Shown here piece by piece: positions 1,706-53,747 of a stretch of DNA of 64,000 nucleotides (within the stretch, counting starts at the first letter, position 1; each line of letters opens with the position of its first letter). The translations under genes were made by a program, and so were the position numbers. Below the pieces are notes generated by a model that was given only the letters and a program-made list of their open reading frames with translations, ran no database searches and was not told where the DNA came from. Origin of the DNA: Haladaptatus sp. QDMS2 (GTDB taxonomy: Archaea; Halobacteriota; Halobacteria; Halobacteriales; Halococcaceae); the NCBI RefSeq assembly GCF_029338295.1, contig NZ_CP119791.1, positions 1,736,001 through 1,800,000 of the forward strand, in the 5' to 3' direction.

Positions 1706-1731
1706 CGCAACCGGATATCTGGTAACTGGAC

Positions 1732-2036
1732 TAGGTCGGGCAGTTAGGCCCTGCTCGTCACCCACGCTATGGTCTTTAGTGGGGACCGAACAGCGGGCGC
1801 GTCCGGTCAGACCGGCACGGGCCCCGGGAGCCAACGTAGAAGCCTCGTCCTTCGGGGACAGCGGTCCACCGGCGAACGTCTGCAGGGACGTCACGCCGTG
1901 GTTAATCGCGAGCAACCCGTCAGGCGCGGAAGCGAGCAGCGAACTCGCGGACACCTGTCGCTCGAAGGGGTGCGGGGTGGAGGCGGCAACCGGGATTCCC
2001 CGTGCCGGAACGCCGGGCAAGCCCGTCCGTCCGCAT
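1732..2036 (+). ncRNA. ffs: Signal recognition particle 7S RNA
   Basis: About 305 nt of GC-rich, highly structured, non-coding sequence. The universally conserved helix 8 core is at 1925-1940, with GGAAG and AGCAGC separated by two bases, followed by gaac and then cgaagggg opposite it. The first bases (ctaggtcgggc) can pair with the last (gcccgtccg, about 2021-2030), giving the closed 5'/3' helix 1 of archaeal SRP RNA. The RNA scaffolds SRP19 and SRP54 and targets ribosomes making membrane or secreted proteins. Ends are estimated to within about 5 nt. Confidence 0.92.
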
Positions 2037-23112: not shown

Positions 23113-24645
23113 ATGAGCCAGCAGGCAACAGAAACCTTCCGCCACTACATCGGCGGGAAGTGGACCGAGGGTGCAGGAGGGGAGACGTTCGAGAGTCTAA
23201 ACCCAGCGACGGGCGAGGTGCTCGGTGAGTTCGCGAAGGGGACGCCGGCGGACGTTGACGCGGCCGTCGACGCCGCCACAGCCGCCTTCGAGGAGTGGCG
23301 CAATCTTTCGCACATCGACCGCGCGGAGTATCTCTGGGACATCTACCATGAGATGCGAGAACGCACCGACGAACTCGCAGAAATCGTCACCAAGGAGTGC
23401 GGCAAAGAAATCTCGGAAGGCCGGGCCGACGTGGTCGAAGCCTACCACATGGTGGAGTGGGCCGCAGGCGACGCCCGCCACCCGAAAGGGGACGTGATTC
23501 CCTCGGAGATTCCGAGCAAGGACGCCTACATGCGCCGTAAGCCGAGAGGTGTCGTTGGCTGTATCACACCGTGGAACTTCCCCGTGGCCATCCCGTTCTG
23601 GCACATGGCCGTCGCGCTCGTCGAAGGGAATACGGTGGTCTGGAAACCGGCTGAACAGACGCCGTGGTGTGGGCAAATCATCGCAGAGATGTTCGAGGAC
23701 GCGGGCATCCCCGACGGTGTGTTCAACATGGTCCAGGGATTTGGCGACGCCGGGGCCGCCATCAGCGAACACGAGGACGTAAAGACGGTGTTGTTCACGG
23801 GATCCGCCGAAGTCGGCCAGAAGGTCGCCCAGATTGCGGCCGCCCAGCCCGGAAAGCTCGCGGCCTGTGAGATGGGCGGGAAAAACGGCATCGTCATCAC
23901 CGCGAACGCAGACCTCGACATCGCCGTTCACTCGGCCATCATGTCGTCGTTCAAGACGACCGGTCAGCGATGTGTCTCGTCGGAACGCCTCATCGTCCAC
24001 GAGGACATCTACGACGAGTTCAAAGAACGGTTCGTCGAACTCGCCGAGCAGATTTCGGTCGGTGACCCACTCGACGAGAACACCTTCATGGGGCCGGCCA
24101 TCGAGCCAGACCACGTCGAAAAGATTCGCCAGTACCGCGACCTCGCGATAAAAGAGGGCGCAACCGTGCTCGTAGACCGCACGGACCTCGACGCAAGCGA
24201 GATTCCAGCGGGCCACGAGGACGGCTACTGGGTCGGCCCGCTGGTCTACGAAATCGAGTACGGCCCGGACGTGCGCGTCATCCGCGAAGAAGTGTTCGGC
24301 CCGCACGTTGCGCTGCTCACGTACGCAGGTGACATCGAGGAAGCGGTGGCGATGCACAACGACACCGAGTACGGACTGGCGGGAGCCATCATCTCCGAGG
24401 ACTACCGCGAAATCAACTACTTCCGTGACCACGCGGAGGTGGGCCTGTCCTACGGGAACCTCCCGTGTATCGGCGCAGAGGTCCACCTCCCGTTCGGCGG
24501 CGTCAAGAAATCAGGGAATGGCTATCCTTCGGCCCGCGAAATCATCGAAGCCGTCACCGAACGGACAGCGTGGACGCTCAACAACTCGAAGGAGATTCGG
24601 ATGGCTCAGGGCCTCTCTGCTGATATCAAGACGCAAGACTCGTAG
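23113..24645 (+). CDS. NAD(P)-dependent aldehyde dehydrogenase
   Basis: 510 residues, full length. The N-terminal YIGGKWTEG, cofactor site ITPWNFPVAIPFWHMA and VVWKPAEQTP, FTGSAEVGQKVAQ, catalytic Glu in ACEMGGKNGIV, nucleophilic Cys in KTTGQRCVSSERLIV, and EEVFGPHVALL are all present. GQRCVSSERLIVHED resembles the ALDH7 or semialdehyde subgroup. It oxidises an aldehyde to the acid; the substrate is not clear. Its last residues (MAQGLSADIKTQDS) end cleanly at 24645. Confidence 0.93.
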   Translation: MSQQATETFRHYIGGKWTEGAGGETFESLNPATGEVLGEFAKGTPADVDAAVDAATAAFEEWRNLSHIDRAEYLWDIYHEMRERTDELAEIVTKECGKEISEGRADVVEAYHMVEWAAGDARHPKGDVIPSEIPSKDAYMRRKPRGVVGCITPWNFPVAIPFWHMAVALVEGNTVVWKPAEQTPWCGQIIAEMFEDAGIPDGVFNMVQGFGDAGAAISEHEDVKTVLFTGSAEVGQKVAQIAAAQPGKLAACEMGGKNGIVITANADLDIAVHSAIMSSFKTTGQRCVSSERLIVHEDIYDEFKERFVELAEQISVGDPLDENTFMGPAIEPDHVEKIRQYRDLAIKEGATVLVDRTDLDASEIPAGHEDGYWVGPLVYEIEYGPDVRVIREEVFGPHVALLTYAGDIEEAVAMHNDTEYGLAGAIISEDYREINYFRDHAEVGLSYGNLPCIGAEVHLPFGGVKKSGNGYPSAREIIEAVTERTAWTLNNSKEIRMAQGLSADIKTQDS

Positions 24646-45469: not shown

Positions 45470-46150
45470 CTATACGTCGGCGCTCATCTCGGCGATTTCA
45501 GCCTCTAGCCACTCCTGGAACCACTTTACGCGCTTCAGGCGCTGGAACGCGATCGAGCGAGCAGTTTCCGACTGCACTCGCTGGGCGGCGTCACGGCCGC
45601 GTTCGAGCACACGTCCAACCATCTCCGCCGAATCCATGTGCGTCCGGGCCTCGTAGCCCATGCGCAGGAGCATCAGCGTGGTGCCGTTCGCGCCGACCTT
45701 GTCGAGCAAGTCGGCCTCAATGAGACACTGCGTTTCGAGCGTCAGATTCGAGAGGTCACCCTGATACGAGTGGTCGGTAATCGAGTCACACACCTGCGTG
45801 ATGAATGACTCAGGGTAGTCGCCGTGGGATTCGAGGAACGCCTGCGCGACGCGGGCACCCTCCTCTGCGTGGACCTCCTGGTCTGCTTCCAGTTTCGCCA
45901 CGTCGTGAAACAGCGCGGCGACGCGGGTCACGTCCACGTTCGCCCCCTCGTTGCGAGCAATCTTCGTCGCGAGCCCGACCACGTTCAGGATGTGGTTGTA
46001 CCGGTACTCGGCGGAGTGCCACGGGTACCATCGCATTCGGCCACCCTCGTCTTCGTTGCGGACTGAGGCCTGGAGATAGTCGTAGACAAACTGCTTCATC
46101 TCCTCGAACGCCTCGTCCGTGATGGGTGACTCCTGAATCTCAACTCCCAC
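45470..46150 (-). CDS. HD-domain metal-dependent phosphohydrolase
   Basis: 226 residues from GTG 46150. Metal ligands: His in YRYNHILNVVGLA, adjacent His-Asp in VAALFHDVAK (about residue 82), and later Asp in LLDKVGANG. Such enzymes hydrolyse phosphate bonds of nucleotides or related compounds. Substrate not readable. The N-terminus is soluble with no signal. A start at the internal Met (MKQFVYDYL) is less likely. Confidence 0.85.
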   Translation of the reverse strand: MGVEIQESPITDEAFEEMKQFVYDYLQASVRNEDEGGRMRWYPWHSAEYRYNHILNVVGLATKIARNEGANVDVTRVAALFHDVAKLEADQEVHAEEGARVAQAFLESHGDYPESFITQVCDSITDHSYQGDLSNLTLETQCLIEADLLDKVGANGTTLMLLRMGYEARTHMDSAEMVGRVLERGRDAAQRVQSETARSIAFQRLKRVKWFQEWLEAEIAEMSADV

Positions 46151-53029: not shown

Positions 53030-53415
53030 GTGCTCACCAGTTACGACAGGTCGGATTGAAGTCGAGGTGAGCCGTGGCAATAGTAGTCCCAACCGGATAT
53101 CGAACCACGCGAGCTGCTCGCGCCGCTCTCCCGTTTGAACCGGGGTTCAGTTACGATTTACGCGTTGGCTTCCCAGCGCGAAAATACGATAGTCCAAACC
53201 GGATATCGAACAACGGTCGCAGATAAGCTGCTCCCTTATTCGAATCCGGCGCTCTTTCAGCGTTACAGCCGAGGCTCAACGTGGAGCCTCGGCAGAATAT
53301 ATAGTCCCAACCGTATATCGAACTGAAGTCGCTCCCTTTGGTCGCTCCAAACTTCGAATCCGGTGGTCAGTCACGAATATAGCCGACGCTCGCAGTTGAG
53401 CGTCGGCAAAGTTAG
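53030..53415 (-). repeat. Array of tRNA-Gln 3'-end fragments and palindromes
   Basis: Downstream of tRNA-Gln, three copies of a 22-bp match to its 3' end (TTCGA-ATCCGG-TTGGGACTA, with one inserted base) occur at 53084-53105, 53190-53211 and 53302-53323; the real one begins at 53416. Spacing is 106, 112 and 114 bp. Beside each copy is a stem: GCCGACGCTC/GAGCGTCGGC (53382-53391, 53398-53407), GCCGAGGCTC/GAGCCTCGGC (53268-53277, 53284-53293), CGCGTTGG/CCAGCGCG (53161-53168, 53173-53180) and GCTCACC/GGTGAGC (53032-53038, 53066-53072). Inside units, CCGGATTCGAA and TTCGATATCCGG form a further imperfect inverted pair. The array has no open reading frame of note. Confidence 0.75.
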
Positions 53416-53488
53416 TAGTCCCAACCGGATTCGAACCGGTGTCAACGGCTCCAAAGGCCGCTATGATTGGCCACTACACCATGGGACT
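53416..53488 (-). tRNA. tRNA-Gln, anticodon UUG
   Basis: 73 nt, no encoded CCA. Acceptor stem AGTCCCA/TGGGACT, anticodon stem GCGGC/GCCGT around loop CTTTGGA with anticodon TTG, T-stem ACCGG/CCGGT around TTCGAAT, discriminator A. The cloverleaf is complete. It lies in a mosaic of its own fragments; this copy appears to be the functional one. Confidence 0.93.
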
Positions 53489-53690
53489 GCACTCACTTCG
53501 TTCGCTCGTCCCACGTACCTCGCAGTTCCTTCGGAACTGCTCACCACCGCGAGACTCGATTTGCTCGCCTCGCGTGATTCGCAATCCGGTACGGATTGTT
53601 CATCACCATGGGATTGCACTGCGTTTGTCCCATTAGCCTTCACGCGTGGCGTGAAGACACCATAGGACTGCTCGATGTGAGACTTCACTT
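53489..53690 (-). repeat. tRNA-Gln 5'-end fragments and palindromes upstream of the gene
   Basis: The 12-bp 5' end of the tRNA (AGTCCCATGGTG) recurs upstream as AATCCCATGGTG (53604-53615) and AGTCCTATGGTG (53658-53669). Between copies lie perfect stems: GCAGTTCC/GGAACTGC (53522-53529, 53533-53540), CGCGAG/CTCGCG (53548-53553, 53569-53574), CAATCCG/CGGATTG (53582-53588, 53592-53598) and CTTCACGC/GCGTGAAG (53638-53645, 53649-53656). A matching 3' acceptor word (atgggac or tgggacg) follows each copy, so each unit can close an acceptor-like stem around its hairpins. Confidence 0.7.
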
Positions 53691-53747
53691 CGTCCTATCT
53701 GTTCCCTATACTTGAACGCTTCGAGAATCCGCAGACTAAGACGCGAT

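Follow-up and report, generated by a model that had tools for sequence, protein, structure and literature searches.

Among the haloarchaeal tRNA genes surveyed, roughly one in two has a stacked array of palindromic DNA units, ~65–200 bp each, in which a direct and an inverted copy of the tRNA's own end enclose a hairpin; few of these arrays stand on the 5′ side of the gene. The number of units differs at orthologous loci of Haladaptatus sp. QDMS2 and two sister species. Units come and go as wholes, a pattern suggestive of very small mobile DNAs of a so far undescribed class with tRNA genes as their targets. The preferred reading, to which we give about an even chance, is that a folded single strand mediates the insertion of small non-autonomous palindromic DNA units beside tRNA genes, with a trans-acting recombinase as the probable enzyme. 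A more specific version is tentative and falls somewhat short of that: the units may represent haloarchaea-specific non-autonomous mobile DNA that lands at the ends of tRNA genes, forms polarised arrays on both sides, and carries a DNA "guide" arm complementary to the end of the tRNA in question.

The tRNA-Gln Locus

The locus described here lies on the minus strand of the window, a 64,000-nucleotide stretch of contig C1, a haloarchaeal chromosome, from the Haladaptatus sp. QDMS2 assembly (G000, referred to as the own genome). An intact tRNA-Gln gene with anticodon TTG (53415–53488; RF00005, 62.2 bits) is accompanied by three trailer units and two leader units. An earlier note on this DNA had described five copies of tRNA ends around the gene; all of their coordinates were confirmed on the tRNA (minus) strand, and the 3′ copies are indeed one base longer than the gene, since the T-loop of all three (TTCGATATCC) contains one T more than that of the gene itself (TTCGAATCC). 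The note had overlooked that, in the trailer, each 3′-end copy is preceded by the tRNA end in inverted orientation.

Trailer units of tRNA-Gln are 106–114 bp long and consist, in this order, of a first hairpin (H1), the tRNA 3′ end copied in inverted form (E′), a second hairpin (H2), and the 3′ end copied in direct form (E). Trailer unit 1 consists of H1 at 53382–53407 (GCCGACGCTC AACTGC GAGCGTCGGC), E′ at 53353–53367 (ACCACCGGATTCGAA), and a segment at 53302–53352 with H2 (53352–53323) and the copy E2 (53322–53302, TTCGATATACGGTTGGGACTA). The first part of trailer unit 2 (53239–53293) contains H1 (53293–53268) and E′ (53252–53239, GCGCCGGATTCGAA); its second part (53190–53238) contains E3 (53210–53190, TTCGATATCCGGTTTGGACTA) preceded by an H2 of the form AAGGGAGC-AGCTTATCT-GCGACC (53238–53211), which matches the class-wide motif treated below (G000:C1:1789216–1789246). 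Trailer unit 3 is orthologous to the sole trailer unit of sister species G002 and has H1 (53180–53161) and a diverged E′ (53147–53134) at 53134–53180, followed at 53084–53133 by H2 (53133–53105) and E4 (53104–53084, TTCGATATCCGGTTGGGACTA).

On the other side of the gene, the order is a direct copy of the gene's 5′ end (Y), one or more hairpins, and an inverted copy (Y′). Leader unit A, which stands alone in sister species G001 (L032), has its Y at 53658–53669 (AGTCCTATGGTG) and a hairpin (TCTTCACGCCACGCGTGAAGGC) with Y′ (TAATGGGAC) at 53627–53657. Leader unit B, with a one-hairpin relative in G002 (L031), has its Y at 53604–53615 (AATCCCATGGTG) and, at 53508–53598, three hairpins (53598–53582, 53573–53549 and 53540–53522, the third with GA/GA flanks on the tRNA strand) plus Y′ (GTGGGAC, 53514–53508). 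Between this unit and the tRNA, and adjoining the latter, is a mini-hairpin spacer of the GC-GA-AC-GAA-GT-GA-GC type (GAGCGAACGAAGTGAGTGC, 53489–53507) that is kept in family members L037–L039. A putative TATA-like promoter element (TTCAAGTAT, 53708–53716) lies outside the leader units and is conserved upstream of tRNA-Gln in the family; where leader units are absent (L042, L044–L046), it is found ~40 nt or less before the gene. The earlier note had counted eight stems across the region, mostly perfect; most arms are perfect, but ten hairpins were counted. Likewise, the acceptor-like 3′ word that it had seen after each leader copy is present, but is an inverted copy of the 5′ word.

Searches of both strands of the 64 kb with the tRNA-Gln 3′ 12-mer (≤1 mismatch) returned the gene, its three copies and one other site, and those with the 5′ 12-mer returned the gene, its two copies and one other site. 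Folded as single-stranded DNA, the trailer units have z-scores of −7.2, −4.8 and −2.5, and the leader stretches −3.4 and −2.0. At both gathering and permissive Rfam thresholds, the tRNA is the sole match in the region, and no family was recovered for the units. An archaeal SRP RNA gene at window positions 1724–2036 has no end copies nearby, unlike the tRNA ends.

Own-End Copies at Other tRNA Genes

The loci surveyed comprised the tRNA genes of the own genome, most of those of G002, and many of those of G001. An own-end copy was defined as the last 12 nt of a tRNA, with ≤1 mismatch, within 400 bp downstream. Such copies follow 41% of 44 tRNAs in the own genome and 52.5% of 40 in G002, compared with 0.1% when tRNA ends are swapped, and they are therefore not due to chance. 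Fewer tRNAs have copies of the 5′ end upstream (4.5% and 12.5%, vs about 1%). The scheme X-H1-X′-H2-X, where X is the tRNA end, applies to most trailer units. BLAST comparisons between different tRNA genes gave 478 matches for the first 600 bp downstream and 3 for the equally long stretch at 900–1500 bp.

Several other features of these loci were observed. Tandem tRNA-Asp pairs occur amid unit arrays in G002 (L100) and the own genome (L065), so whole-tRNA duplication occurs there too. ARAGORN predicts an intron of ~30 nt in tRNA-Asn of G002 (G002:C1:1806873–1806975); the G001 gene has the same, longer length (G001:C1:2034441–2034543), and the own-genome gene has no intron (G000:C1:2308491–2308563). 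The tRNA-His region (L152/L153; G000:C1:22500–46200) has its gene at 45968 and further 3′-end copies near 24595 and 24450, the first of these distal copies being preceded by an H2-like sequence (GGGAGCGGTAGCGATCGGGG). The intervening stretch of about 21 kb looks like an integrated island, and a putative TnpB-like ORF, judged by eye, lies just beyond the last copy. Identical stretches with matching spacing were seen near both ends of contig C1 (24447/2945782 in L003 and L004, and 11011/2932347); they probably reflect a circular contig whose overlapping ends were left untrimmed.

Distribution across the Class Halobacteria

A strict trailer motif, GATTTGAANNAGGGAGC-N3-30-GCGAC, which corresponds to the end of E′ plus H2, was found in 88 of 242 Halobacteria genomes and in 39 of 73 genera. 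The reversed-motif control gave 0 matches, and a slightly looser pattern gave 38/87. Carriers, by record name, include Haloferax, Halorubrum, Natrinema, Halobellus and Halorientalis. No motif was present among 242 genomes from outside the order in the phylum sample; at the motif level, and within this sample, the units are restricted to Halobacteria. Nearly all motif matches are linked to tRNA genes: 105 of the 116 examined have a tRNA of the same orientation 21–377 nt upstream, and 26 anticodons are represented. The 11 exceptions include two bacterial contigs, and several others end in tRNA-like 3′ sequences that are possibly intron-bearing tRNAs missed by ARAGORN.

The match between unit and resident tRNA also holds across the class. 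Following the H2 motif, the tRNA's own end is found in 77% of cases, vs 3.4% with swapped tRNAs. The E′ arm, scored at five tRNA-specific positions, averages 3.54 pairs with its own tRNA and 2.60 with swapped ones. A gapped E′ score of ≥18 was reached by 50 of 85 own comparisons vs 16% of swapped ones, a moderate separation that is explained by T-loop letters common to all tRNAs. When the T-loop of E was compared with that of the tRNA, 52 of 75 classified copies were identical, 17 had a single additional pyrimidine, always in the same place, and none had a deletion. A gap is needed in 53 of 68 E′:E alignments, a raw count that comes without a null for gaps. In the variable inner stems of H2, about half continue a tandem G.A pattern and half are Watson-Crick; the first G.A pair of the class-wide matches was imposed by the search pattern itself.

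Turnover of Whole Units and Sharing of Their Interiors

Whole-unit differences between species were found at 11 tRNA genes (Arg-CCT, Arg-GCG, Asn, Asp, Cys, Gln-TTG, Gly-CCC, Gly-GCC, Leu-CAA, Leu-TAA and Tyr). At each, the sequence right after the tRNA in one species is found right after an E copy in the other, with an offset of mostly 0, and the former species lacks the extra unit. The differing units are thus the ones nearest the tRNA, when arrays are read outward from the gene. For instance, G002 is without exactly trailer units 1 and 2 of tRNA-Gln, G001 is without exactly leader unit B, and unit 1 of tRNA-Tyr is private to G001. The arrays are also polarised. Among loci with at least two copies, 22 have a first copy that is closer in sequence to the tRNA than the last one, 8 show the reverse, and 8 are ties. 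Mean mismatches by copy rank (1.23, 1.29 and 1.62) form a weak age gradient; the within-locus comparison (22 vs 8) alone is informative. Polarity and private units favour, short of proof, reading the differences as insertions rather than deletions; deletion between direct repeats would give products identical to missing insertions.

Comparison of 87 units revealed that the closest relative is found at a different tRNA gene for 33, at the orthologous tRNA for 39, and in a tandem neighbour for 11. The 39 orthologous matches indicate that many units are vertically inherited. Unit interiors are common to different tRNA genes, while the arms match the resident tRNA. At tRNA-Gln, for example, the leader Y/Y′ pair is AGTCCCATGG/ATGGGAC in one genus (g1) and AGTCCCGTGG/ACGGGAC in another (g2), with other family members having no unit. 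The E copy of trailer unit 3 in the own genome is specific to that genome (GGTTGGGAC) and matches its present tRNA, and the G002 orthologue has GTGGGAC. Since this copy tracks the tRNA of the own genome, concerted change of copies takes place beside gain and loss. An orthologous unit whose E still matches the tRNA runs counter to simple insertion and is what gene conversion predicts; concerted evolution, by gene conversion among E copies, must therefore also act.

These results bear on what the earlier note had proposed. Its reading of the region as a new tRNA-derived repeat or small mobile unit is the one that survived, now with units that are genome-wide, class-wide, variable unit by unit, and related across tRNA genes in 33 of 87 cases. 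Units are present in relatives and throughout the genome, clearly the opposite of the absence from both by which the note would have reduced the pattern to chance and one old integration. Its view that repeated integration could account for the copies on the 3′ side, yet not for those on the 5′ side, has to be corrected: the 5′ units mirror a 3′ unit type and are present or absent with equal exactness, so one process could explain both.

DNA or RNA

Perfect hairpins with TC/TC flanks number 33 downstream of the tRNA genes and 0 upstream, and those with GA/GA flanks number 7 upstream and 6 downstream, the latter in twice the length. Both kinds are nearly absent from the remaining sequence examined. 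Leader and trailer hairpins are mirror images: at either end of the gene, an element of the same type faces away from it. The non-Watson-Crick pairs in E′:E stems comprise 11 G-T and 18 A-C, and the G-U-tolerant covariation of structured RNA was not found in them; mismatches in the perfect hairpins were too few to decide (6 vs 5). Given the mirror symmetry and the lack of a G-U bias among mismatches, the units probably act as DNA rather than RNA. A kink-turn reading of the tandem GA motif was dropped, as no three-base bulge adjoins the G.A pairs.

Insertion Model and Rival Explanations

For unit insertion, we infer both the single-strand route and the kind of enzyme. Insertion of a new unit would take place at the tRNA boundary; this would duplicate the tRNA end and leave the youngest unit adjacent to the gene. 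Pairing of E′ with E would form a stem identical in sequence to the end of the tRNA gene and capped by a variable hairpin, and the extra T-loop pyrimidine in E would leave one bulged base on this stem. The folded unit could then also be recognised by an enzyme whose target is the tRNA-gene end. The folded E′:E stem would equal the duplex sequence of that end, which would explain the need for both arms to match the resident tRNA. A leader unit is a trailer unit mirrored, at the 5′ end. Joining would be performed by a trans-acting recombinase, most plausibly a tyrosine recombinase.

Tyrosine recombinases in general (PF00589) are present in 8 of 8 unit-bearing genomes searched. Since almost every genome encodes such an enzyme, this finding carries little weight. 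The Y1 transposase (PF01797) is missing from 6 of 17 unit-bearing genomes (G001, G056, G139, G047, G165 and G023). Together, these distributions lean towards a tyrosine recombinase, as an unproven candidate. The units are devoid of genes, and the neighbourhood of the arrays yielded no dedicated enzyme. Phage_integrase-family genes occur ~550 bp from a unit motif at G139:C1:492908 and G165:C19:14804, and this proximity may be due to chance.

The strongest competitor, with perhaps half the standing of the insertion model, needs no mobile-element enzyme. Slippage, template switching at hairpins and E-E recombination would rearrange an ancient stock of units at tRNA genes, with repeat expansion and contraction plus gene conversion producing the arrays. 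This is consistent with the E of trailer unit 3 and its G002 orthologue, which follows the resident tRNA, with the leader Y and Y′ words, which change together with the tRNA between genera, and with the 11 of 87 units that best match a tandem neighbour. It fits less well with an H2 that is conserved at many tRNAs in 39 genera, and units at non-homologous tRNAs would need a copying route between loci; nor is tRNA-proximal polarity expected from random recombination between copies. Rather unlikely, in our estimation, is a guide-directed insertion of single strands as in IS200/IS605 elements or REPs, in which E′ would be the DNA guide, E the cleavage site and the tRNA end the target of a Y1/HUH transposase supplied in trans. 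The succession of target, guide, imperfect palindrome and cleavage site, together with a GA/GA mismatch in the stem, is as in IS608 and REPs (PMC8266576); this mechanism also explains the need for both arms to match the target tRNA, and palindrome-associated IS605-like elements exist in haloarchaea (PMC3119063). However, PF01797 is absent from the six genomes listed above, among them G001 with its private units, the complementary arms are 9–14 nt long here and not 4, and no TnpA was found beside the arrays.

The two remaining accounts retain much less probability than either of these. An RNA function is improbable: the units would be structured leader or trailer RNAs serving tRNA transcription, 3′ processing or a fold switch (tRNA end:E′ vs E′:second E), a possibility that the earlier note had raised and that the mirror symmetry and the 11 vs 18 mismatch counts disfavour. 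Their position between promoter and tRNA and directly 3′ of the tRNA, strong folding, and the tandem G.A pairs on the sense strand of H2 in many units (the class-wide first pair being set by the search pattern) would suit such a role. Against it stand the lack of both a G-U excess and an Rfam family, the many tRNAs that have no units, and the free variation in unit number between sister species; moreover, the leader hairpins mirror one type of trailer hairpin, so the two cannot be one and the same RNA. Most remote of all is the notion that each unit is an attR scar left at a tRNA 3′ end by a deleted provirus or plasmid. While tRNA genes are the usual integration sites in archaea (PMC8371274), and ~21 kb separates the own-genome tRNA-His from a 3′-end copy that has an H2-like end and one unit, gene-sized cargo was found in none of the examined tRNA-linked H2 motifs, all within 21–377 nt of the tRNA. 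Leader units and inverted E′ copies that match each tRNA also argue against scars, and phage and plasmid records queried with the Gln region gave tRNA-like matches only, with no similar units.

Comparison with Known Systems

No description of such arrays was found in the open-access literature, to which the search extended. Palindrome-associated elements and partial tRNAs at prophages have been described in Haloquadratum, and the portion of that text consulted does not mention an array architecture at tRNA ends (PMC3119063). What is new is the architecture and its location; the mechanism could be a variant of a known one. If the insertion model is correct, the tRNA genes of a whole archaeal class would be platforms where tiny palindromic DNA units accumulate and exchange through an undescribed recombination route. 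This would bear on why tRNA genes are integration hot spots, and would provide a polarised insertion record at about half of a genome's tRNA loci. Near haloarchaeal tRNAs, such units may then account for many annotations of a "partial tRNA" or an att site. Folded single-strand recombination in Archaea would also become testable in genetically tractable relatives, as the motif occurs in Haloferax species.

The units resemble several known systems in part. As with elements that integrate into tRNA genes through tyrosine recombinases and leave attL and attR sites, the tRNA 3′ end is directly duplicated and the newest copy would adjoin the gene. In contrast to those elements, the units are ~65–260 bp and gene-free, include inverted copies and 5′ units, and occupy about half of the tRNA genes. 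CRISPR arrays share polarised growth and duplication of the repeat with each insertion, but here the repeat is the tRNA's own end, the "spacers" are a family of related hairpins, and no association with cas genes was noticed. With IS200/IS605 ends, REPs and the PATEs of haloarchaea, the units have in common a small, palindromic, gene-free form, a stem mismatch, and the order guide-palindrome-cleavage site. By analogy of position and complementarity, E′ would correspond to the guide, as it lies 5′ of the palindrome and is complementary to E on the 3′ side. The units differ in being confined to tRNA ends, in their long target-specific arms, and in the missing Y1 transposase of 6 of 17 genomes.

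Integron attC sites and CALINs offer a further comparison. Recombination at attC uses a folded strand with extrahelical bases (PMC3053210), and archaeal integrons have been found in MAGs of nine phyla, in a text that contains neither "Halobact" nor "tRNA" (PMC9668308). Gene cassettes are lacking in the units, which are too short for genes, with 105 of 105 motifs 21–377 nt from the tRNA. Unlike attC arrays, they anchor at a tRNA end and not at attI, their arms are copies of that end, and both ends of the gene are used. As in attC and CALIN arrays, they form a series of imperfect palindromes with pairing arms (here tRNA-specific), a variable inner stem and terminal hairpin, and a possible extrahelical base, and whole units are gained or lost exactly, with insertion beside an anchor.
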